In this document: positions 145 through 7,150 of the stretch, one piece after another
How positions within the stretch are numbered: the first letter of the stretch is position 1
Layout: each line of letters begins with the position of its first letter
Origin: Acidobacteriota bacterium
Lineage (GTDB): Bacteria > Acidobacteriota > Terriglobia > UBA7540
DNA: 7,150 nt
Reading direction: 5' to 3'
NCBI GenBank assembly: GCA_003165615.1
Contig: PLWR01000480.1
Span: 415 to 7,564, forward strand
Notes under the pieces: model-generated
What the model was told of the DNA's origin: nothing
The model's input: the letters and a program-made list of their open reading frames with translations, nothing else
Database searches by the model: none
Position numbers and translations under genes: made by a program

Positions 145-1374
145 GTGAGGAGAGTCGTCATCACCGGGATTGGAGTCTTTGCTTCCACTGGTAAGAATGC
201 TGACAGTTTTTTTGCCACGCTGGCCGAGGGGCGGTCGGCGACGCGCCGCATTCAGCAATTCGATCTTACTGAACTGAGCGTGCAGATTGCGGCGGAAGTC
301 CCCGACTATGACCCGCTCAAGTATTTCCCGGCCAAGCGCCTTGACTTGCTTGACCGCTTCAGCCAATTCGCCTTGCTGTCCGCCCAGGAAGCGATAAATT
401 CCAGCGGCATCCAGGTGCGTGATGAGGAGCGACCACGCTTTGGAGTGGTGACGGGTACCGGCATGGCGGGCGCCGCCACCTTCGACTCAGCCTATTACAA
501 CCTTTACGTGAAGCACGCGACCCGCCTGCATCCTTTTACCATCCCCAAGATCATGCACAACGCCGCCACTTCACAAATCTGCATGGAGTTCGGTGCCCAG
601 GGGCCGTCGCTGACCACCGCCACCGCTTGCTCTTCCTCCGGGCACGCGATCGGGCAAGCCTTCCACTTGATCAAACTTGGAATGGCCGACTTGATGTTGG
701 CCGGCGGGACCGAAGCGCCGATCACCTTCGGGATGCTCCGCTCGTGGGAATCGGTGCGCGTCCTGGCCAGCGGCAATGGCGATCCCAGCAAGGCCTGCCG
801 GCCTTTTTCCCTCGACCGCGAGGGATTGGTGCTTGGGGAAGGGTCGGCGATGTTTCTCTTTGAGGAACTCGAACACGCCCGGCAGCGCGGCGCCAGGATT
901 TATGGGGAGATTGCGGGTTTCGGATTAAGCTCCGACGCCAGCCATATTACCCAGCCTTCCATTGATGGTCCGGCGCGGGCGGTGCGCATGGCGCTGTGCG
1001 AAGCTGCGGTCAATCCCCAGGAGGTGGATTATATTAATGCTCACGGCACAGGCACGCGCGTTAACGACGTTACGGAAACGCAAGTCATCAAAGAGGTGTT
1101 CAGAGATCACGCCCGCCGGGTGGCCATCAGTTCCACGAAATCGATGCACGGGCACGTGATGGGGGCGACGGGAGCCGTCGAACTGGCAGCCACCATTCTG
1201 GCCATGGACCGGGGAGTCATTCCCCCCACGGCCAATTATACGCAGCCGGATCCGGAATGCGATTTGGACTATGTGCCCAATCAAGCGCGGAAAAAGTCCG
1301 TGCGCATCGCGATGTCCAATTCCTTTGCCTTCGGTGGGCTGAATGCGGTTTTGCTGGTCCGGCGGTTTGAGTAG
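145..1374 (+). CDS. beta-ketoacyl-ACP synthase (KAS II / FabF-like)
   Basis: A thiolase-fold condensing enzyme of 409 residues, the usual full length for FabF-type synthases. It would catalyse decarboxylative Claisen condensation of an acyl-thioester with malonyl-ACP in the cytoplasm. The catalytic set is complete: Cys162 in TACSSS, His300 in NAHGTGT, and Lys332 and His337 in STKSMHGH; the C-terminal SNSFAFGGLN loop is present at 391-400. The nucleophile context is TACSSS, as in type I polyketide synthases, rather than the ACATG of housekeeping FabF, so a specialised role is more likely than bulk fatty acid synthesis. The start is GTG at 145, preceded by AAGGGG (133-138) with a 6-base spacer; the protein then begins MRRVVITGIG as the family does. 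The upstream frame ends 24 bases earlier, consistent with an operon. The family is certain; the product chain is not. Confidence 0.95.
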   Translation: MRRVVITGIGVFASTGKNADSFFATLAEGRSATRRIQQFDLTELSVQIAAEVPDYDPLKYFPAKRLDLLDRFSQFALLSAQEAINSSGIQVRDEERPRFGVVTGTGMAGAATFDSAYYNLYVKHATRLHPFTIPKIMHNAATSQICMEFGAQGPSLTTATACSSSGHAIGQAFHLIKLGMADLMLAGGTEAPITFGMLRSWESVRVLASGNGDPSKACRPFSLDREGLVLGEGSAMFLFEELEHARQRGARIYGEIAGFGLSSDASHITQPSIDGPARAVRMALCEAAVNPQEVDYINAHGTGTRVNDVTETQVIKEVFRDHARRVAISSTKSMHGHVMGATGAVELAATILAMDRGVIPPTANYTQPDPECDLDYVPNQARKKSVRIAMSNSFAFGGLNAVLLVRRFE

Positions 1375-1513
1375 AACCGGAACACATGGCACGGGGCACG
1401 GGAATCGGAACGCGGGCCTCAGGTTTCGGATCCAACCTGTGGTCTAAGGTAATCGGACAAGCGCAGCCGGGGAATGGGATTTTCGCCCGTGTCCCGTATC
1501 CCATGTCCCGAAC
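1374..1513. repeat. inverted heptamer-repeat element 1, between synthase and glycosyltransferase
   Basis: Most of the 153-base gap is built of 7-bp units in two opposed arms. The left arm (1374-1415) reads as six consecutive G-rich heptamers, including GGCACGG twice (1388-1401), then GAATCGG and AACGCGG. The right arm (1486-1513) reads as four C-rich heptamers: CCCGTGT, CCCGTAT, CCCATGT and CCCGAAC. The arms are imperfect reverse complements (GGCACGGG against CCCGTGT). The central 70 bases hold a small hairpin, CAGGTT (1420-1425) with AACCTG (1434-1439). The left arm begins at the synthase stop codon. No convincing gene or promoter is seen here. Confidence 0.75.
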
Positions 1514-1527
1514 TCGGAGTCTTCTCA

Positions 1528-2715
1528 ATGATTCAGAAGCGTGTTTGCATTTTGACCCTCGGGGTAAGCACGGGACGCCTGCGTGCCTCCGAGTCGGTGC
1601 AACGCGCTCTGTATGACGGTAATGATCCCATTGAAGTGAAGGTTGTGGATGCTCTCGATTCCGTTCGCAGGTGGTTCCACTGGCTTTATCGGGCCCCTTA
1701 CGGATGGACTTTGCGGAACGCCCCGTGGCTATGGCGGTTGGTGTTTGGACGCCGCCACCCCAATCGGTGCTATTCCACGGCTCCTGATTGGGTTTTTCGG
1801 CGTGCCTGGCGGGACGTTTTGCTCCAGATGAAAAGCTATGCTCCCCAATTGGTGATTGTCACGGAAAGTGGAGCGGCAGAAATCGCTGCCTTGGGGCGTC
1901 GCGAAGGGTGGTTCAACGCGCCCATTCTGGCCGTGCAAACCGATTTTCACACCGAGCCTCCCTGGGTGCAATCGGAGATCGATGCTTATTGCGTGGCCAG
2001 TGAGGAAGCACGTGGGCAACTGATTGGATGGGGTGTCCTGCCCAATCGGGTTTTGCTTTGCGGCATTCCCATTGATCCGGTGTTTGCCTTGCCCTTTGAC
2101 AAGAATGAATTGATGAAGGCTCTGGGCCTGGACGCGCGCCTGCCCGTGGTGCTGGTGATGGGGGGCGGAATGGGGCCGGTGCCCCTCGATAACGTGGTGT
2201 CAAGTCTCGAACTTTGCGACGCGCCCATGCAGGTGGTGGCGGTGGCCGGCCGCGACCGCAACCTTCGCCAGCGGATGGAATCGCTGCGCGGGCGGCTGGC
2301 CATGGACCTCCATCTGTTTGGCTGGACGGATAATGTGCCGGAACTGATGGCGGTTTCCGATATTTTGATCACCAAACCGGGCGGTCTCACCGCGGCGGAA
2401 GCGCTGGCCGCGGGATTGCCGATGATTCTGACTCATCCCATTCCCGGGCCGGAGGAGCGGCACGTTCGTTACCTGGGCCAAAATGGGTTGGCTCTGCACG
2501 CCGAGACTTTGCGCGATATCCCGCGCCTGGCATCATGGCTGCTCTCCAGCCCCGAAGAACTCAACGAAATTCGGCATCGCGCCCGTGAGTGGTCGCGTCC
2601 CGACGCCGCGCACGCCATTGCCCAAGTGGCCTTGGCATTGCTGGAAAAAGCCACCTATATCGATTTGCTCGCGACGCCCCCGCCGCGCTCCGGTGAGTCG
2701 GCATATTTAATGTAG
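1528..2715 (+). CDS. MGDG synthase / UgtP-type glycosyltransferase (GT28-like fold)
   Basis: A 395-residue GT-B glycosyltransferase of the family that adds galactose or glucose to diacylglycerol at the inner membrane face. The acceptor-side domain has QTDFHTEPPW (137-146) and CVASEEARGQL (155-165), matching the family's TDF...H and VASEE segments. CGIPIDPVF (178-186) matches the GIP.d..F linker. The C-terminal nucleotide-sugar domain has LVMGGGMG (209-216), LFGWTDNV (263-270) and ITKPGGLTAAEALAAGLP (281-298), its best signature. The N-terminal GGGH motif, normally before RAS, is replaced: residues 11-21 read LGVSTGRLRAS, putting Leu18 where His is expected. No membrane segment is evident. The ATG at 1528 is chosen over an in-frame ATG at 1474 because GGAG (1516-1519) lies 8 bases upstream and the protein then starts directly with the first beta strand (MIQKRVCILT); the longer form would translate the repeat element. 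The acceptor need not be diacylglycerol. Confidence 0.85.
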   Translation: MIQKRVCILTLGVSTGRLRASESVQRALYDGNDPIEVKVVDALDSVRRWFHWLYRAPYGWTLRNAPWLWRLVFGRRHPNRCYSTAPDWVFRRAWRDVLLQMKSYAPQLVIVTESGAAEIAALGRREGWFNAPILAVQTDFHTEPPWVQSEIDAYCVASEEARGQLIGWGVLPNRVLLCGIPIDPVFALPFDKNELMKALGLDARLPVVLVMGGGMGPVPLDNVVSSLELCDAPMQVVAVAGRDRNLRQRMESLRGRLAMDLHLFGWTDNVPELMAVSDILITKPGGLTAAEALAAGLPMILTHPIPGPEERHVRYLGQNGLALHAETLRDIPRLASWLLSSPEELNEIRHRAREWSRPDAAHAIAQVALALLEKATYIDLLATPPPRSGESAYLM

Positions 2716-2941
2716 AAGGACGTCCCTTGTCCTTTGTCATTGGTCCTTGGTCCGTTGCAACGGTGGTTGTCCAGGATTTTCCAGCGATTTGCTGGCTTTC
2801 GAATGGTTTGAAAACGCTGGATTGTGAGTATTCGCACCCAAGTAGTGGGGCGCGCCACGGACAAAGGACCAAGGACCAAGGACCAAGGACTAAGGACTAA
2901 GGACCAAGGACCAAGGACTAAGGACTAAGGACTAAGGACTA
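2716..2941. repeat. inverted heptamer-repeat element 2, between glycosyltransferase and ligase
   Basis: The 226-base gap has two opposed arms of 7-bp units around a roughly 100-base centre. The left arm (2724-2758) is pyrimidine-rich: CCCTTGT, CCTTTGT, CATTGGT, CCTTGGT and CCGTTGC. The right arm (2857-2940) is purine-rich: ACGGACA and then eleven AAGGACY units. Aligned by hand, the reverse complement of 2721-2755 matches 2857-2891 at 29 of 35 positions, so the transcript could form a long stem. The centre (2759-2856) has only a minor hairpin, CCAGC-GATTT-GCTGG, and no convincing gene or promoter. Confidence 0.88.
2864..2940 (+). promoter_or_regulatory. eleven tandem AAGGACY heptamers serving as Shine-Dalgarno array
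   Basis: Eleven exact 7-bp units, AAGGACC or AAGGACT, run without interruption up to one base before the ATG at 2942. The last base of successive units reads C C C T T C C T T T T. Units 2-5 (2871-2898) and 6-9 (2899-2926) are an identical 28-bp duplication, suggesting growth by block duplication. Each unit contains AAGGA, a Shine-Dalgarno core. The last copy leaves 3 bases to the start codon and the one before leaves 10, either side of the usual spacing, and no other ribosome-binding site is present. The ligase is therefore presumably translated from this array. Confidence 0.8.
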
Positions 2942-4255
2942 ATGTTTAGTAATGCCCGCAAACTCTTTGAACGCGCCGTGATTGGCGATTCCGTGCCGGC
3001 CCTGGTCCGTTGGGGCAAACACGTTCCCCCCTCGGTGATTCAGAGAATTCGGACCGATGCGTTTGTGGAGGTCGTGCGTTACTGCGCCGAGCACCAGAAG
3101 TTTTTCGCGCGCAAATTGCGCGAGCACGGTATTGACCCCAGGCGTGTCCGCCGTCCCGAGGATTTGGGCGATATTTTCACCACTCCCGAGGATTTGCGCA
3201 CGCTCCCCGCGGAAGATTTTCTCTGCCGCGAGCCGGAACTGGTATTTGAAACCACCGGAACTTCCGGCGGCCCCAAGCGGGTCTACTATTCCTACCAAGA
3301 ACTGGATTTTGCCGCTCGTTACGAAGCGGCGGGACTTTATGAAAACGGCGTTCGACCCGGGGCCCGCGTAGTTTGCACGTTTGATGCGGGGTATTGGTTC
3401 AGCAGTTGGGTCACCTTCCTGGCCTGCAAAAAGCTGGGGGTGTTTTGCTCCGCCGTTGGCAAGCCCCATCCCCGCGAGGTTTACTCGCGCATGGCCGATT
3501 ACCGGTACGACGTAATTTCGGCGGACCCCACGTGGCTCGTCAGCTTCAGTGAAATTGCGGAGAAGGAAGGCACTTTTCCCCTGCGCCTGATTATGGCCGC
3601 CGGCGACCGCATGACGGATGTGTATCGCCACTATGTGGAGAGCGTCTGGCAGTGCCCGGTCCTTCTCGCCTATGGCTCCACCGAAGTGGGTGGGGCGGGC
3701 ATGGAATGCCGGCGCCAGGACGGATATCATCTCGACGATTTCAATATTTACTTCGAGATCCTCGACCCGGATGAGAACGGTTATGGCGAGCTGGTGGGGA
3801 CCACGCTTTCACGTCGCACCATGCCCTTCATTCGTTACCGGGTTCACGACGTGACCCGGTTCATTGACGCGCCTTGCCCCTGCGGCGCTCCCCTGCGGCG
3901 CATCGAGCGCATCCGCGGCCGCCGCGACGAGATGGTGGTGATGGGCGCAGGGAATATGTATCCGGAGATTTTTGAGCGTGTCCTGCACGACGTGAAGGGC
4001 ATTGCTGAGAACTGGCAGGTGGTCGTCCGCCAGGAAGGCCTGCACGATATTTTGGAGTTCCGCCTGGAACTGACCAATGGCGTCAGCGCCTCCACCGTCC
4101 AGGCGGCGATTGAGGCAAGTCTCCAGACCCTTTATCCCGATGTCTGGGCGAACCAGGCCTGCGGGATGTACCAACTCAGCTTCCGCTTTCTTCCTCTTGG
4201 CAGCATCGAGCAGGGAAGGAAGCCAAGACGGCTCCTCGACGAGCGGGCGGCTTGA
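2942..4255 (+). CDS. phenylacetate-CoA ligase-like adenylate-forming enzyme (PaaK family)
   Basis: A 437-residue member of the ANL adenylating superfamily, with length and layout like PaaK/CoF390-synthetase proteins. It should activate a carboxylic acid with ATP to an acyl-adenylate and then pass it to CoA or a carrier thiol. Motifs in order: the phosphate-binding loop ETTGTSGGPKR (103-113), the adenine-side YGSTEVGG (244-251), RYRVHDVTRF (298-307) with the Asp expected to hold ribose, and the hinge region GRRDEM (326-331). A PaaK-type cysteine pair, CPCG, lies at 312-315. The small C-terminal domain carries QGRKPRRLLDER, where Lys427 is the likely catalytic lysine. The protein looks intact. 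The start is set by the AAGGACY array ending one base upstream. Its place between a glycosyltransferase and a phosphatase fits a biosynthetic role better than phenylacetate breakdown, since no paa degradation genes are nearby. The substrate cannot be read from the sequence. Confidence 0.88.
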   Translation: MFSNARKLFERAVIGDSVPALVRWGKHVPPSVIQRIRTDAFVEVVRYCAEHQKFFARKLREHGIDPRRVRRPEDLGDIFTTPEDLRTLPAEDFLCREPELVFETTGTSGGPKRVYYSYQELDFAARYEAAGLYENGVRPGARVVCTFDAGYWFSSWVTFLACKKLGVFCSAVGKPHPREVYSRMADYRYDVISADPTWLVSFSEIAEKEGTFPLRLIMAAGDRMTDVYRHYVESVWQCPVLLAYGSTEVGGAGMECRRQDGYHLDDFNIYFEILDPDENGYGELVGTTLSRRTMPFIRYRVHDVTRFIDAPCPCGAPLRRIERIRGRRDEMVVMGAGNMYPEIFERVLHDVKGIAENWQVVVRQEGLHDILEFRLELTNGVSASTVQAAIEASLQTLYPDVWANQACGMYQLSFRFLPLGSIEQGRKPRRLLDERAA

Positions 4256-4350
4256 AGGATTAAAGTGTAAAGAGTAGAGGTTAAAGAATGAGAGGCTTCG
4301 TTTTTAGCCCTTACCCTTTAACCTTCCGACGGACAAAGGACAAAGAAATT
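4255..4350. repeat. inverted heptamer-repeat element 3, between ligase and phosphatase
   Basis: The 95-base gap is again mostly 7-bp units. The left arm (4255-4289) is AAGGATT, AAAGTGT, AAAGAGT, AGAGGTT and AAAGAAT, its first base being the last base of the ligase stop codon. The right arm (4308-4328) is CCCTTAC, CCTTTAA and CCTTCCG. A perfect 9-bp inverted pair, AGGTTAAAG (4278-4286) and CTTTAACCT (4316-4324), links the arms across 29 bases. Then follow the direct units ACGGACA (4329-4335) and AAGGACA (4336-4342), which share the 13-base word ACGGACAAAGGAC with element 2. The last of these supplies the phosphatase ribosome-binding site (AAAGGA, 4335-4340, 10 bases before ATG 4351). Confidence 0.75.
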
Positions 4351-5091
4351 ATGACAAACTTAACGCGTGATGCGGCCGAGGGTGAATTGAGCCCGGTAAT
4401 TTTTTGTGATTTTGACGGGACCATCACGCAGCTTGACGTGACCGACCAGATTCTGTCGCAGCTTGCGCATCCCTCCTGGCGCGAAATCGAACAGCAATGG
4501 ATGCAGGGGCTGATTGGCTCGCGGGAGTGCCTGGAGCGGCAGATCGCCCTGGTGGACGCTCCGGTGGGGGAACTTCAATCGGTCATTGACGCCGTTCCGA
4601 TCGACCAGGAGTTCGGGGCCTTTTGCAAATTTGCGCGCCAGAAGCGGCTGCCGCTCTACATCCTCAGCGACGGATTCGATTATGTGATTCGACGCGTCCT
4701 CAAGCGCGCCGGCGTTGACCGGCAATTCAAGAGTGGTAAGAACCTGTTTGCGAGCGCGCTGCGCCTGGAGGGCCGCCGGTTGGCCCCTTCCTTCCCGCAC
4801 TTACCCGAGCCTTGCGCGCACGGGTGCGCGACCTGCAAAGCGGCCCTCGTCCGCCGCCTGCGGGAAGGCCGGCGCCCCGTCATCTTTATCGGTGATGGCA
4901 TGTCAGACCGTTTCGCCGTGGAGAATGCCGACGTGGTGATTGCCAAACGGCATTTGCTGGCGCACTGCCGGGAGAACGGCATCGCCTGCCATCCTTTCGA
5001 GACTTTTAAGGACGTCCAGGTAACGCTGGAGAAGTTGCTGGCCCCGGCGCCCGTCCGGCGATACCGCCAGGCCATTGCCGCGGTGTCATGA
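4351..5091 (+). CDS. HAD-superfamily phosphatase (MtnX / SerB-like, subfamily IB)
   Basis: A 246-residue haloacid-dehalogenase-fold phosphatase, expected to hydrolyse a small phosphomonoester in the cytoplasm through a phospho-aspartate. All four motifs are present: motif I DFDGT with nucleophile Asp20 and acid/base Asp22, motif II Ser106 in YILSDGFD, motif III Lys163 in TCKAALVRRL, and motif IV GDGMSD with Asp182 and Asp186. The helical insert after motif I is typical of the phosphoserine-phosphatase/MtnX branch. A cysteine cluster CAHGCATC (155-162) sits just before the motif III lysine, where MtnX-like enzymes often carry cysteines before the lysine. The ATG at 4351 is preferred over ATG 4288, which would add 21 residues read from the repeat element and lacks a family-like sequence. 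Its context suggests dephosphorylation of a pathway intermediate rather than methionine salvage; no other salvage gene is visible. Confidence 0.88.
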   Translation: MTNLTRDAAEGELSPVIFCDFDGTITQLDVTDQILSQLAHPSWREIEQQWMQGLIGSRECLERQIALVDAPVGELQSVIDAVPIDQEFGAFCKFARQKRLPLYILSDGFDYVIRRVLKRAGVDRQFKSGKNLFASALRLEGRRLAPSFPHLPEPCAHGCATCKAALVRRLREGRRPVIFIGDGMSDRFAVENADVVIAKRHLLAHCRENGIACHPFETFKDVQVTLEKLLAPAPVRRYRQAIAAVS

Positions 5092-5133: not shown

Positions 5134-5646
5134 ATGCTACAGGAAGACAAAGCGTTCCTTAACCTGGCAGGAGAGTTCGCTGTCGCATCCGAATTGAACC
5201 GAAGGCGAGTTCTCGCGTCTGTAACTTACGGCGCGTCTAAGTGTGCTGACGTTTTCGCGCTTAGCCCGGATATGACTCAGGTGGTTCGCATCGAGGTCAA
5301 AGCGACGAATCCCAAGAAAAAGACAACATGGCTCATCGGGGAAAGAGGCACCAGATCCAGCGTTGCCGAGGATGTTTTCTGGGTATTTGTGCTGTTCCCT
5401 GCCGCGCCGGACGGGACATCTGCCGACGATGCGCAGCGCAGAGCAGAAGCGCCCCGTTTTTTTGTTCTGTCCCGGAAGGAGGTCTACGAAGCTTTTAGGA
5501 AAGGGGTTGATGACTTTAATCAACGCCGTAAAGACCGCGGTAAGGGACCTTTTGAGGGTCTCGGTGTCCCAGGCGTGAGGCTTGATGACATCAAGTCGCA
5601 TGAAGGCAAGTGGCAAAAGATCACCTCGCGCTTGCAATCCCCTTGA
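5134..5646 (+). CDS. small PD-(D/E)XK nuclease-like protein, function unknown
   Basis: A soluble 170-residue protein with no signal peptide or membrane segment. Residues 12-56 fit the restriction-endonuclease-like core: a leading helix with Glu14 and Glu20 (AGEFAVASELNRRR), then Asp39 in CADVFAL, then the strand VVRIEVKAT carrying Glu54-Val-Lys56. This gives D-(14 residues)-E-x-K, the metal-binding arrangement of the PD-(D/E)XK fold, and the opening resembles small 'GE.AVA.EL..RG' endonuclease-like proteins. It may cut or bind nucleic acid; orphan members also occur near defence and mobile genes. The second half (110-170) is charged and not recognised. The start is well supported by AAAGGAG (5119-5125), 8 bases before ATG. 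It is followed by a toxin-antitoxin pair, which suggests acquisition as an accessory module. The fold assignment rests on a short motif read by eye. Confidence 0.6.
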   Translation: MLQEDKAFLNLAGEFAVASELNRRRVLASVTYGASKCADVFALSPDMTQVVRIEVKATNPKKKTTWLIGERGTRSSVAEDVFWVFVLFPAAPDGTSADDAQRRAEAPRFFVLSRKEVYEAFRKGVDDFNQRRKDRGKGPFEGLGVPGVRLDDIKSHEGKWQKITSRLQSP

Positions 5647-5787: not shown

Positions 5788-6042
5788 ATGAGCACAACTT
5801 CGAATCTCGAATTGCCGACTGAACTGAAGCGAAGGATTGAGCGCGTGGCGAAGGAACGCGAGGAAGAGCCTGCCACCCTGCTTTCCTCTGCCATCGATTC
5901 ATTGCTCAGTATCGAAGAAGCGCAAATCGCTGAGGTGCGGCGGAGAGACGCGACCGATACGGGCGAGATCTCCAGCAATGAGGAAGCCCTCGCGAAGCTG
6001 GAGTCCTTTCGCCCCAGTCGCAGAAATCCGTTGCCCAAGTGA
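5788..6042 (+). CDS. antitoxin of a ParE-type module, ribbon-helix-helix-like
   Basis: An 84-residue, highly charged protein. The N-terminal half has the layout of a ribbon-helix-helix DNA-binding domain: a short strand (NLELP, 6-10), helix one (ELKRRIERVAKEREEE, 12-27) and helix two beginning PATLLSSAIDSLL (28-40). The acidic, polar C-terminal half (41-84) would be the flexible part that wraps the toxin. The frame overlaps the downstream toxin gene by 4 bases (GTGA), the usual coupling in such operons, with the antitoxin first. ATG 5788 is preceded by the purine-rich stretch AAGGATGGGAAG (5768-5779), a usable ribosome-binding site. It should bind its own promoter and neutralise the toxin. 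The family assignment leans on the neighbouring toxin; the exact antitoxin class is less certain. Confidence 0.72.
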   Translation: MSTTSNLELPTELKRRIERVAKEREEEPATLLSSAIDSLLSIEEAQIAEVRRRDATDTGEISSNEEALAKLESFRPSRRNPLPK

Positions 6043-6320
6043 CCGTCCTTTGGGTCAAGAAAGCCTATGACGATCTCGATGGGATTGGCAATTATCTCTC
6101 CGGCCTGTCAGATGAAGCGGCCGAGCATACGGTCGACTGCATTCAAAAGGCTGTCCTCCTGCTGGGGGAATTCCCCAACATAGGAGCAAAGGTCGATGAG
6201 ACCGGACTCCGCAAACTGGTGGTTTCCGACACTCCTTACGTCGTATTCTATCGAGTCCTCGCCGATTATGTGAGCATCCGGGGTGTCTTTCACGCGAGCC
6301 AACGCCGCTTTCTGGAATAG
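6039..6320 (+). CDS. ParE/RelE-superfamily toxin
   Basis: A 93-residue protein, the normal size for this superfamily. It opens with a strand and a helix typical of ParE (LWVKKAYDDLDGIGNYLS, 4-21), continues with a long second helix (25-43), then the signature GAKVDETGLRKLVVSDTPYV (49-68), FYRV (70-73), and the last strand IRGVFHASQRRF (80-91). Arg58, Tyr67, Arg81 and His85 are the conserved-looking polar positions. ParE members inhibit DNA gyrase and RelE members cleave mRNA at the ribosome; this sequence looks closer to the ParE/plasmid-stabilisation branch, but the target cannot be decided by eye. The start is GTG 6039, overlapping the antitoxin TGA, so translation is probably coupled. The protein looks complete and the module could be active. 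Confidence 0.88.
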   Translation: MTVLWVKKAYDDLDGIGNYLSGLSDEAAEHTVDCIQKAVLLLGEFPNIGAKVDETGLRKLVVSDTPYVVFYRVLADYVSIRGVFHASQRRFLE

Positions 6321-6430
6321 CATCCGGGAAACTCCGAGGATGCCGAGGGGCGAATCGTCAAACGGGGAAGCCGGCGTGACCACGGCGCCGCGGCAGCGTC
6401 CGGGAGCGAGCGAAACTGGCGCAAGAAAAT
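6321..6430. other. GC-rich non-coding stretch after the toxin
   Basis: This is the first third of the 328-base gap between toxin and aminotransferase. It is GC-rich and contains the self-complementary word CGGCGCCG (6393-6400) and several short G/C inverted words, but no hairpin followed by a T-run. The + frames show no credible gene. A minus-strand frame crosses it but antisenses the toxin and runs through the repeat element, so it is not accepted. Confidence 0.4.
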
Positions 6431-6620
6431 AAACCACCAAGACACCAAGGCACCGAGAAACAGAAGCACGAGGGATTGGAGGGTAAGAGCTTTTCACGCA
6501 GAGTTCACGTAGAAAAACAACCACAGAGAACACGGAGAAGAGCAGCGGTTTTCTCTGTGCACTCGGTGAGCCGAACTCTGTGCCCTCTGTGTGAAATGAT
6601 CTTTGGTTTCTGGGTGGTGA
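6431..6620. repeat. nested inverted repeat element 4, 8-9 bp units, before the aminotransferase
   Basis: The outer left arm has 8-bp units: CACCAAGA (6435-6442), CACCAAGG (6443-6450) and CACCGAGA (6451-6458), fading through 6474. Its counterpart near 6601-6620 matches its reverse complement at about 15 of 20 positions. The middle pair is TTTCACGCAGAG (6492-6503) and CTCTGTGTGAAA (6585-6596), 11 of 12 complementary. The inner pair is CACAGAGAA (6522-6530) and TTCTCTGTG (6551-6559), perfectly complementary over a 20-base loop. CACAGAG-type words recur about every 9 bases. The arrangement is thus three nested inverted pairs. Similar 'CACAGAG..CACAGAG' intergenic text is, from memory, common in several soil-associated phyla. 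No promoter was recognised. Confidence 0.78.
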
Positions 6621-6639
6621 ATAATTGAGAACTACGAAT

Positions 6640-6644
6640 GGAGG
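6640..6644 (+). promoter_or_regulatory. ribosome-binding site fixing a TTG start for the aminotransferase
   Basis: GGAGG lies 4 bases before TTG 6649. The aminotransferase frame has no in-frame ATG until about residue 57, well inside the conserved domain. The only other upstream start is TTG 6625, right after an in-frame TAA and without a good site. TTG 6649 is therefore the best start. Confidence 0.65.
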
Positions 6645-6648
6645 CCCC

Positions 6649-7150
6649 TTGGCCACATCTGAATCTACTACGCGCACCGCGGAACTGCTGGATCTCGAGC
6701 GCAAGTACTGCTCGTTCGGCGACACGGTGCATTATCTTGAACCCCCGAAAATCTTTGTCGATTGCGAGGGCAGTCACCTTTACGACGAGCGCGGAACGCC
6801 CTACCTCGATTTGCAAATGTGGTATTCGGCGGCGAGCTTTGGTTACAAGAACCGCCGCTTGGGCGAGGCGCTGAAGCGCCAGGTGGACCGCCTGCCGCAG
6901 CTCGCCTGCCAGTACCTGCACGCGGAAAAAGTGGAGGTGGCGGCGTGCATTGCCCAGTACTGCGAAAAGCGTTTTGGCGTGAAGGGCCGCGTACACTTTA
7001 ACGTGGGCGGCGCGCAGGCGATCGAGGACTCGCTCAAGCTGGTGCGCAATTACACCGGCAAGAACCTGATGTTTGCTTTCCAGGGAGGTTATCACGGGCG
7101 CACCCTGGGTGCGTCCGCCATCACCTCCAGCTATCGCTACCGGCGGCGTT
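6649..7150 (+). CDS. class III pyridoxal-phosphate aminotransferase, N-terminal part (partial)
   Basis: The open frame runs to the window edge, giving 167 residues of a protein normally 400-460 long. It has the fold-type I class III N-terminal layout (4-aminobutyrate, acetylornithine, BioA and diaminobutyrate aminotransferase relatives). FVDCEGSHLYDERGTPYLDL (36-55) is the family's 'G..lwD.dG..YlDl' entrance. FNVGGAQAIEDSLKLVR (117-133) is the cofactor-phosphate loop and following helix. FQGGYHGRTLGAS (144-156) holds the tyrosine/histidine segment that stacks on the PLP ring. The PLP-binding lysine lies beyond the window. It would move an amino group between a keto acid or aldehyde and an amino acid donor. 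It may add the amine in the pathway encoded upstream, though the accessory block and repeat element 4 separate it from those genes. Which subfamily it belongs to cannot be settled from this part. Confidence 0.92.
   Translation, partial: MATSESTTRTAELLDLERKYCSFGDTVHYLEPPKIFVDCEGSHLYDERGTPYLDLQMWYSAASFGYKNRRLGEALKRQVDRLPQLACQYLHAEKVEVAACIAQYCEKRFGVKGRVHFNVGGAQAIEDSLKLVRNYTGKNLMFAFQGGYHGRTLGASAITSSYRYRRR

Follow-up and report, generated by a model that had tools for sequence, protein, structure and literature searches.

Inverted arrays of 7-bp units in the gaps of an acidobacterial operon and their link to S23/IVP genes

The window analysed here is a stretch of 7,150 nucleotides from an Acidobacteriota bacterium (GenBank assembly GCA_003165615.1, contig PLWR01000480.1), in which genes for a ketoacyl synthase, a glycosyltransferase, an AMP-ligase and a HAD phosphatase form an operon whose three gaps carry opposed arrays of 7-bp units. 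The observation was confirmed and the arrays belong to a class; what is new is that such arrays are linked to genes of the S23/IVP family (PF05635, 23S_rRNA_IVP). The three gaps probably hold gene-less copies of a selfish element with period-coded inverted ends, which resembles the intervening sequences (IVS) of 23S rRNA. In its complete form, the element would consist of an S23/IVP gene for a four-helix-bundle protein of about 120–150 residues, set between two inverted arrays with units of 7 bp, in some cases of 8 or 9 bp. The arms of one copy would share the same text and a consistent handedness, the text would differ from copy to copy, and the copies would lie in intergenic gaps, operon interiors included.

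Inverted arrays in the window and its relatives

The window contains the following arrays, with the period-7 ranges reported by Tandem Repeats Finder (TRF) where they apply:
1383..1415, no strand: gap 1, left arm, G-rich with GGCACGG followed by GAATCGG; the array and the partner inverted to it pass the 95% level set by unrelated gaps; TRF 1388-1402
1486..1513, no strand: gap 1, right arm, C-rich units CCCGTGT, CCCGTAT, CCCATGT, CCCGAAC; TRF 1486-1510
2722..2757, no strand: gap 2, left arm, five GTCCNTN-like units; TRF 2722-2757 and inverted-partner tests
2852..2941, no strand: gap 2, right arm, about 12 GGACNAA units up to the start codon at 2942; TRF 2859-2942 and inverted-partner tests
4256..4295, no strand: gap 3, left arm, purine-rich and degenerate (AAAGTGT, AAAGAGT, AGAGGTT, AAAGAAT); lag-7 and inverted-arm tests
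4308..4327, no strand: gap 3, right arm (CCCTTACCCTTTAACCTTCC); sequence reading and inverted-arm shuffles
4331..4345, no strand: GGACAAA repeat of two units ahead of the HAD start codon; TRF 4331-4345
6421..6610, no strand: probably a further member, an inverted array with periods mixed from 8 to 11

The identity at lag 7 amounted to 0.43 in gap 1375-1527 (z 4.6), 0.53 in gap 2716-2941 (z 9.9) and 0.51 in gap 4256-4350 (z 5.3), and none of 500 dinucleotide shuffles reached these values in any of the gaps. The initial annotation had parsed all three gaps into consecutive 7-bp units, which holds for the period-7 signal of each gap; as a full parse it went too far, since gaps 1 and 3 are degenerate and resolve into units only partly, and none of the three gaps is heptameric in its middle part. 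Its opposed arms were recovered throughout, with the best inverted match between gap halves being equalled by 0/300, 0/300 and 2/300 shuffles in gaps 1, 2 and 3, respectively. The arms also adjoin stop and start codons as described there, the left arm of gap 2 starting 6 nt past the stop codon and its right arm reaching the ATG at 2942, and a constant period with changing unit text is borne out in the window, the texts changing between clades of relatives as well. Folded as RNA, gap 2 alone gave a hairpin clearly better than shuffles (z -5.1; gap 1 -1.3, gap 3 -2.1). The array at 6421-6610, which the initial annotation did not list, lies in the gap before the aminotransferase gene and contains units of the types ACCAAGRC, CACAGAGAA / TTCTCTGTG. 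Periods 8, 9 and 11 were reached there by 1, 1 and 5 of 500 shuffles (over 6321-6649) and its arms by 2/300, and it probably is of the same class with longer units. Rfam gave three matches above gathering thresholds over eight sources (two tRNA, one Acido-Lenti-1), none of them on an array.

One scan of genome contigs yielded 33 loci with the whole or part of the window operon (loci are labelled L and genomes G below; the scripts called genes as greedy long reading frames, with no gene finder), and the named relatives of the window's AMP-ligase are Terriglobia/Acidobacteriia. Period-7 arrays were present in the operon gaps of seven of the eight nearest loci (L001-L007, L031), L004 having none at that threshold, so the heptameric structure of these gaps is shared by close relatives; another 25 more distant operon loci contained seven intergenic period-7 arrays in total. 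As read by eye, the array text follows the clades of the protein tree. The glycosyltransferase-ligase gap carries GTCC-type text in the window, L003 and L005, TCGAAAT-type text in L002 and, in one arm, L004, and TCAGT/TAACTGA-type text in L001 and L006. For the ligase-HAD gap, the text is of the AAAGGGT type in the window, L002, L031 and weakly in L004, of the TTCTGAA type in L001 and L006, and different in L003, L005 and L007.

The intergenic period-7 excess that the initial annotation had proposed to look for was found in stretches of four Terriglobia genomes, G001, G007, G003 and G005, which contained 11, 8, 19 and 9 intergenic arrays of period 7, with no other period between 5 and 12 exceeding three arrays, making 7 the sole strong intergenic period. 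Of the two outcomes that the initial annotation had named as refuting it, lack of such an excess and lack of heptameric structure in the gaps of close relatives, neither occurred in the relatives analysed. Untargeted stretches of the Holophagaceae-like genome G135 gave 26 intergenic arrays at period 7, 20 at period 9 and 12 at period 10, and 50 kb of E. coli contained no such arrays. Array pairs at most 300 bp apart resembled each other more closely in inverted than in direct orientation in 17 of 18 cases, with 12 exceeding the 95% level of random array pairs, totals which are inflated because the set includes eight G135 stretches (L070-L077) picked for GGAC arrays. Measured against unrelated gaps, 48 of 86 arrays of the Terriglobia and the window have an inverted partner that passes the 95% level, with about 10% expected because two sides were tested. 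Texts recur between loci in 59 of 3545 pairs at a similarity of at least 0.75 (column-permuted control: mean 10, maximum 15) and are therefore not arbitrary. A comparison of unit order between the arms, for mirroring, gave a mean shuffle fraction of 0.29 in ten Terriglobia and window pairs; L044 forms a near-perfect inverted repeat, to which L005:8454 comes close. As a separate observation, L005:8454-8557 and L165:7937-8049, which are different loci of two species with unlike loops, share GGTGATT arms that are almost the same in sequence and contain a higher-order repeat of 14 bp. GGACNAA arrays of at least five units also occur in five IMG/VR stretches (L220-L224).

Arrays around S23/IVP genes

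Matches to PF05635 were found in ten of ten genomes searched vs 0 of 14 control genomes. Thirty loci were fetched of 78 IVP matches, and a period-7 array lay within 250 bp of 23 of these 30 IVP genes vs 65 of 452 ordinary genes, with other periods scoring 0-3 of 30. L199, which tblastn failed to locate, was left out of the both-side, arm-text and tree counts; of the 29 loci remaining in this first set, 18 are flanked by period 7 on either side. The second set likewise comprised 29 loci, drawn from 29 Acidobacteriota genomes, and showed matching arrays on both sides at period 7 in 16 cases and at period 8 in eight, and a third, consisting of 13 loci fetched of 36 plasmid records with an IVP match (11 cyanobacteria, one Riemerella, one Gemmatirosa), at period 7 in 11 of 13. 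Pooled over all 71 IVP loci, both sides have period 7 in 48, period 8 in nine and period 9 in one, the near-identical elements L230 and L232 being counted twice both here and in the counts by set. The arms of an IVP element are inverted copies of one text (0.80 within an element, 0.50 between elements, 0.45 in direct orientation), and they have a preferred handedness, with the G-rich arm upstream in 42/48 and the C-rich arm downstream in 42/48. Arm-text similarity is correlated with protein similarity (Mantel r 0.26, 0/1000 permutations). Three of the 33 operon loci (L019, L020, L033) carry an IVP gene in the ligase-HAD gap, which corresponds to gap 3 of the window. Among 50,697 phage records, no IVP match was found.

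Arrays and IVP genes also co-occur across genomes. IVP matches occurred in 75 of 149 genomes of the phylum Acidobacteriota, 71 of them above cut-off. Intergenic arrays of period 7 occurred in 0 of 26 stretches of Acidobacteriota without IVP (23 genomes, 33.3 kb intergenic), in 0 of 4 stretches of genomes with one or two IVP genes, and in 10 of 20 stretches of genomes with at least three (29.9 kb intergenic); the latter 20 include L287-L296, at most 10 kb each, nine of these ten lying on contigs whose IVP hit falls beyond the stretch. Taken alone, the 20 first-contig stretches gave arrays in 6/10 with at least three IVP genes vs 0/10 with none to two, and period 8 followed the same trend (1 vs 9 arrays). 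Two GGCTNTN arrays found by their text alone (G162:C27, G126:C3) turned out to lie about 110-130 bp from independently found IVP matches.

Similar whole elements stand at unrelated sites in two pairs of loci. The element DNA of L259 and L265, on two cyanobacterial plasmids, is 68% identical over 397 bp, reaching 91% in 34 bp of the arm, and the flanks have no similarity; that of L258 and L261 is 71% identical over 474 bp between unrelated flanks. L190/L215 and L230/L232 occupy orthologous sites, and L202/L210 and L216/L217 have one flank only in common. The initial annotation had seen a generating process or structural constraint rather than copies of one mobile element; the texts do differ as it noted, and its denial of a mobile element is too strong because the architecture is that of an S23/IVP-encoding element and because of these two pairs. 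Three loci on cyanobacterial plasmids have IVP elements with heptamer arms inside other gene pairs: L254 between ribonucleotide-reductase (nrd) genes, L255 and L265 between cas6 and cas4. A metagenome survey lists 18 IVP genes in cas loci, often beside cas4 or cas6 (PMC3936711), and this published CRISPR association may reflect element insertion.

A rigid version of the element is present in G135, whose TrmD protein has named relatives in the Acidobacteria and Holophagaceae. The palindromic core CGACCCA...TGGGTCG occurs 33 times in this genome (reversed control, 1), and we fetched 29 of the 33 exact cores with their flanks. All 29 copies carry arrays on both sides in fixed phase, which a simple score assigned to GGCT/GGCT in 20, GTCC/GTCC in five, GGAG/GGAG in two and mixed GGAG/GGCT in two. 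The consensus reads four GGCTYTR units, GCTG, four free letters, CGACCCA, a free loop and the mirror image; 17 of the 29 cores have a length of 29 bp, and conservation fades beyond about 36 letters. Handedness is identical in 58 of 58 arms. In the core-aligned arms, unit positions 1-4 and 6 are conserved and letters 5 and 7 are free; pairing of the free letters across arms was not above permutation (0.515 vs 0.481; 233/2000), and a mirrored unit order was not seen in the 29 elements (mean shuffle fraction 0.50). The arms of the two IVP elements of the same genome are of the GTCC and GGAG types, both of which are among the three gene-less texts, and CGACCCA precedes the gene. L206 reads units-GCTG-NNNN-CGACCCA-gene, which is the phase of the 29 gene-less copies, and the inner letters of L198 differ from those of the gene-less copies. 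Because no TGGGTCG half was seen just ahead of the right arm in L206 or L198, the gene-less copies appear to consist of the left end and its mirror image. A genus-level search around G135 reached one other genome, with no match. One arm of L112 (G135:C18:313800-314450) changes mid-way from GGAC-type to AGCC-type units, so two texts can share an arm.

Gene content of the window and weight of the readings

The window itself contains the following genes and frames:
145-1374: ketoacyl synthase
1528-2715: monogalactosyldiacylglycerol (MGDG)-synthase-like glycosyltransferase
2942-4255: AMP-ligase
4351-5091: HAD phosphatase
5134-5646: frame of 170 codons, no Pfam match
5788-6042: short frame, no Pfam match
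6039-6320: ParE-type frame
6625 onward: aminotransferase, start only

Judged from its length, the gap of the relatives that corresponds to the frame at 5134-5646 lacks this frame. The short frame and the ParE-type frame at 5788-6320 lie within the HAD-aminotransferase gap; the short frame of 5788-6042 begins, by eye, in the L004 counterpart of this gap and is missing from most other relatives.

The reading that we regard as probable, gene-less copies of an IVS-like selfish element in the three gaps, draws on the association of arrays with IVP genes, their co-occurrence across genomes, the matching arms, their handedness, the two pairs of elements at unrelated sites, the core shared by gene-less and IVP-bearing copies in G135 and the IVP gene in the ligase-HAD gap of three operon relatives. 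As to how such an element moves, how its RNA is processed and whether its arms act as RNA or as DNA, we infer the following course. In a read-through operon message, the arms would pair as an imperfect stem resembling that of 23S-rRNA intervening sequences, and the insertion would be tolerated because RNase III could cut this stem. The S23/IVP protein would act on the arms of its own element, aid its spread and serve gene-less copies in trans. Whole units would be gained and lost by slippage, and the arms would stay alike as their text drifts because they would be copied from each other.

Several results weigh against this reading. The window has no credible IVP gene: the best tblastn match has 24% identity and an E-value of 1.2e-4, comes from one of 71 queries and lies antisense to the ParD/ParE region. 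No common core was seen by eye in the gene-less pairs of the Terriglobia, arrays of the own genome gave the best match to the arm text of an IVP element in no more than three of 11 Terriglobia cases, and the IVP element of L033 in the matching gap has period 8 vs period 7 of window gap 3. The link between gene-less and gene-bearing forms thus is weaker for the Terriglobia than for G135. Furthermore, 13 of the 71 IVP loci are without matched arrays, periods 7 and 8 are not clustered on the IVP protein tree (eight changes, shuffled mean 8.5), and the co-occurrence across genomes (Fisher 4.5e-5 for zero vs at least three IVP genes) is uncorrected for kinship.

Among the alternatives, it appears unlikely that the arms are host hairpins kept as mRNA stems for termination, stability or insulation, with IVP genes nearby by chance or regulation. 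The arms do adjoin stops and starts, they are retained clade-wise in the same gap, and G135 arrays are few in divergent gaps (1/52 vs 10/129 tandem and 5/50 convergent); yet Terriglobia divergent gaps are not clearly depleted (4/35 vs 18/106 tandem), the variable letters of G135 pair at the permutation level, and the IVP association is left unexplained. Selection for hairpins as the sole cause was rejected on this pairing result and on the unmirrored unit order in G135. Quite unlikely, too, is an order of events in which heptamer pairs are older and an IVP cassette inserts between them as a target: although the 33 exact cores of G135 far exceed its two IVP genes, the text-protein correlation, the arms travelling with the gene in L259/L265 and L258/L261 and the lack of arrays in IVP-less stretches all speak against it. 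Slippage alone, producing ordinary simple repeats through polymerase contacts of about 7 bp with no element involved (a hypothesis of Mrazek, as cited in PMC4692102 and PMC4679880), would account for array lengths differing by whole units, five vs about 12 in gap 2, and for the dominance of period 7 reported in many genomes. We consider it very unlikely, because the inverted match exceeds the direct one in 17 of 18 pairs of adjacent arrays, handedness is fixed in the G135 arms and in most IVP elements, and arrays are tied to IVP genes and absent from the 26 IVP-less stretches.

A mechanism by which a five-subunit S23/IVP ring binds one unit per subunit, its spacing setting the period, would be compatible with the selfish element and could serve as its mechanism; we nevertheless hold it to be highly improbable. 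The TRAP ring binds spaced repeats. For such a ring speak the four units per arm in fixed phase in G135, with positions 1-4 and 6 conserved and 5 and 7 free, and XCC0516 of Xanthomonas campestris, the sole solved S23/IVP relative found (E 3.6e-25), which is listed with five chains and whose structure paper speaks in its title of five four-helix bundles. The same unit pattern and a four-unit preference are reported for the Xanthomonas GGGANTN repeats in PMC4692102. Against it, the period does not cluster on the protein tree, on which ground the setting of the period by an IVP ring was rejected, and position-specific variation on raw arrays, which included flanking letters, was negative (393/400 simulations as high in G135, 60/400 in Terriglobia). 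Position-specific variation was accordingly not retained as a general rule, being clear in core-aligned G135 arms and non-significant on raw arrays. Repetitive extragenic palindromes with their associated tyrosine transposases (REP/RAYT) were likewise rejected: the Y1 (RAYT-type) transposase had no matches in G135, though it occurred in eight of nine genomes searched, and one of six Y1 loci had a period-7 array within 400 bp. Overall, the interpretation of the initial annotation is partly supported.

More tentatively than for the window, the selfish element may represent a widespread class whose ends are recognised by period and handedness and not by one sequence, so that drifting 7- or 8-bp inverted arrays bracket an S23/IVP gene or nothing. 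Such a class could explain much of the intergenic heptamer excess of Xanthomonas, cyanobacteria, Beggiatoaceae and Acidobacteriota as well as S23/IVP genes in cas loci and other operons, and the likeness of its arms might come about by fold-back copying.

Comparison with known systems

A survey of 7006 prokaryote genomes reports tandem heptamers to be their most abundant intergenic tandem repeats, with 'no clear clue' on their function (PMC6344855), and we found no literature linking S23/IVP to heptameric arrays among open-access papers. The element proposed here offers a testable origin for these unexplained 7-letter repeats of many bacteria. It joins the heptamer excess to the origin of S23/IVP, and both questions become testable, since arrays predict element positions and the IVP gene provides a protein which can be assayed. 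It also calls for caution where a CRISPR function is ascribed to IVP genes found in cas loci, or where heptamer arrays are taken for regulatory sites.

As heptameric intergenic tandem repeats (STRR/LSSR), the arrays of the window and the four Terriglobia genomes fit the known pattern of 7-bp units that are mainly intergenic. The initial annotation knew this pattern from heterocystous cyanobacteria; the setting is wider and includes Xanthomonas, with 70 and 75 cases of arrays including convergent pairs (PMC4692102), and X. campestris is among the species for which convergent heptamer pairs are described. The GGGAATC repeats of Xanthomonas and the GGGGA(C/T)T repeats of Nostoc described in that study share with the present arrays the period of 7, the intergenic location, close convergent pairs, a preference for four units and conserved positions 1-4 and 6. 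As a difference, that study dealt with a single text per genome; its authors in general saw no association of the repeats with insertion sequences or transposable elements, and S23/IVP terms were not found in the main text. The TAACTGA repeats of Beggiatoaceae, cyanobacteria and Bacteroidetes are also intergenic with period 7, and their text is that of arms in L001 and L190, whereas their description presents them as almost only direct (169 sets, one indirect) and as proposed translation-regulator sites (PMC4679880).

The S23/IVP elements of 23S rRNA, whose inverted ends form a stem cut by RNase III, are considered selfish, with origin and mobility described as unclear in PMC4990558. In contrast to these IVS, which reside inside the 23S rRNA, the window arrays as well as the elements of L254 and L255 lie between protein genes, have 7- or 8-bp arrays of variable text and possibly many gene-less copies. 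An S23/IVP frame, of which the window has no credible example, is present in three of the 33 operon relatives. Common to both systems are the S23/IVP family and pairable inverted ends around the gene, and pairable terminal inverted repeats are present in the window and in the IVP-bearing elements, gap 2 being the one that folds clearly better than shuffles. Compared to miniature inverted-repeat transposable elements (MITEs), the ends are period-coded arrays of variable text and not one terminal sequence, and no transposase is known. The likeness to MITEs lies in short gene-less copies standing beside a rarer gene-bearing form with the same ends, which is clear within G135.

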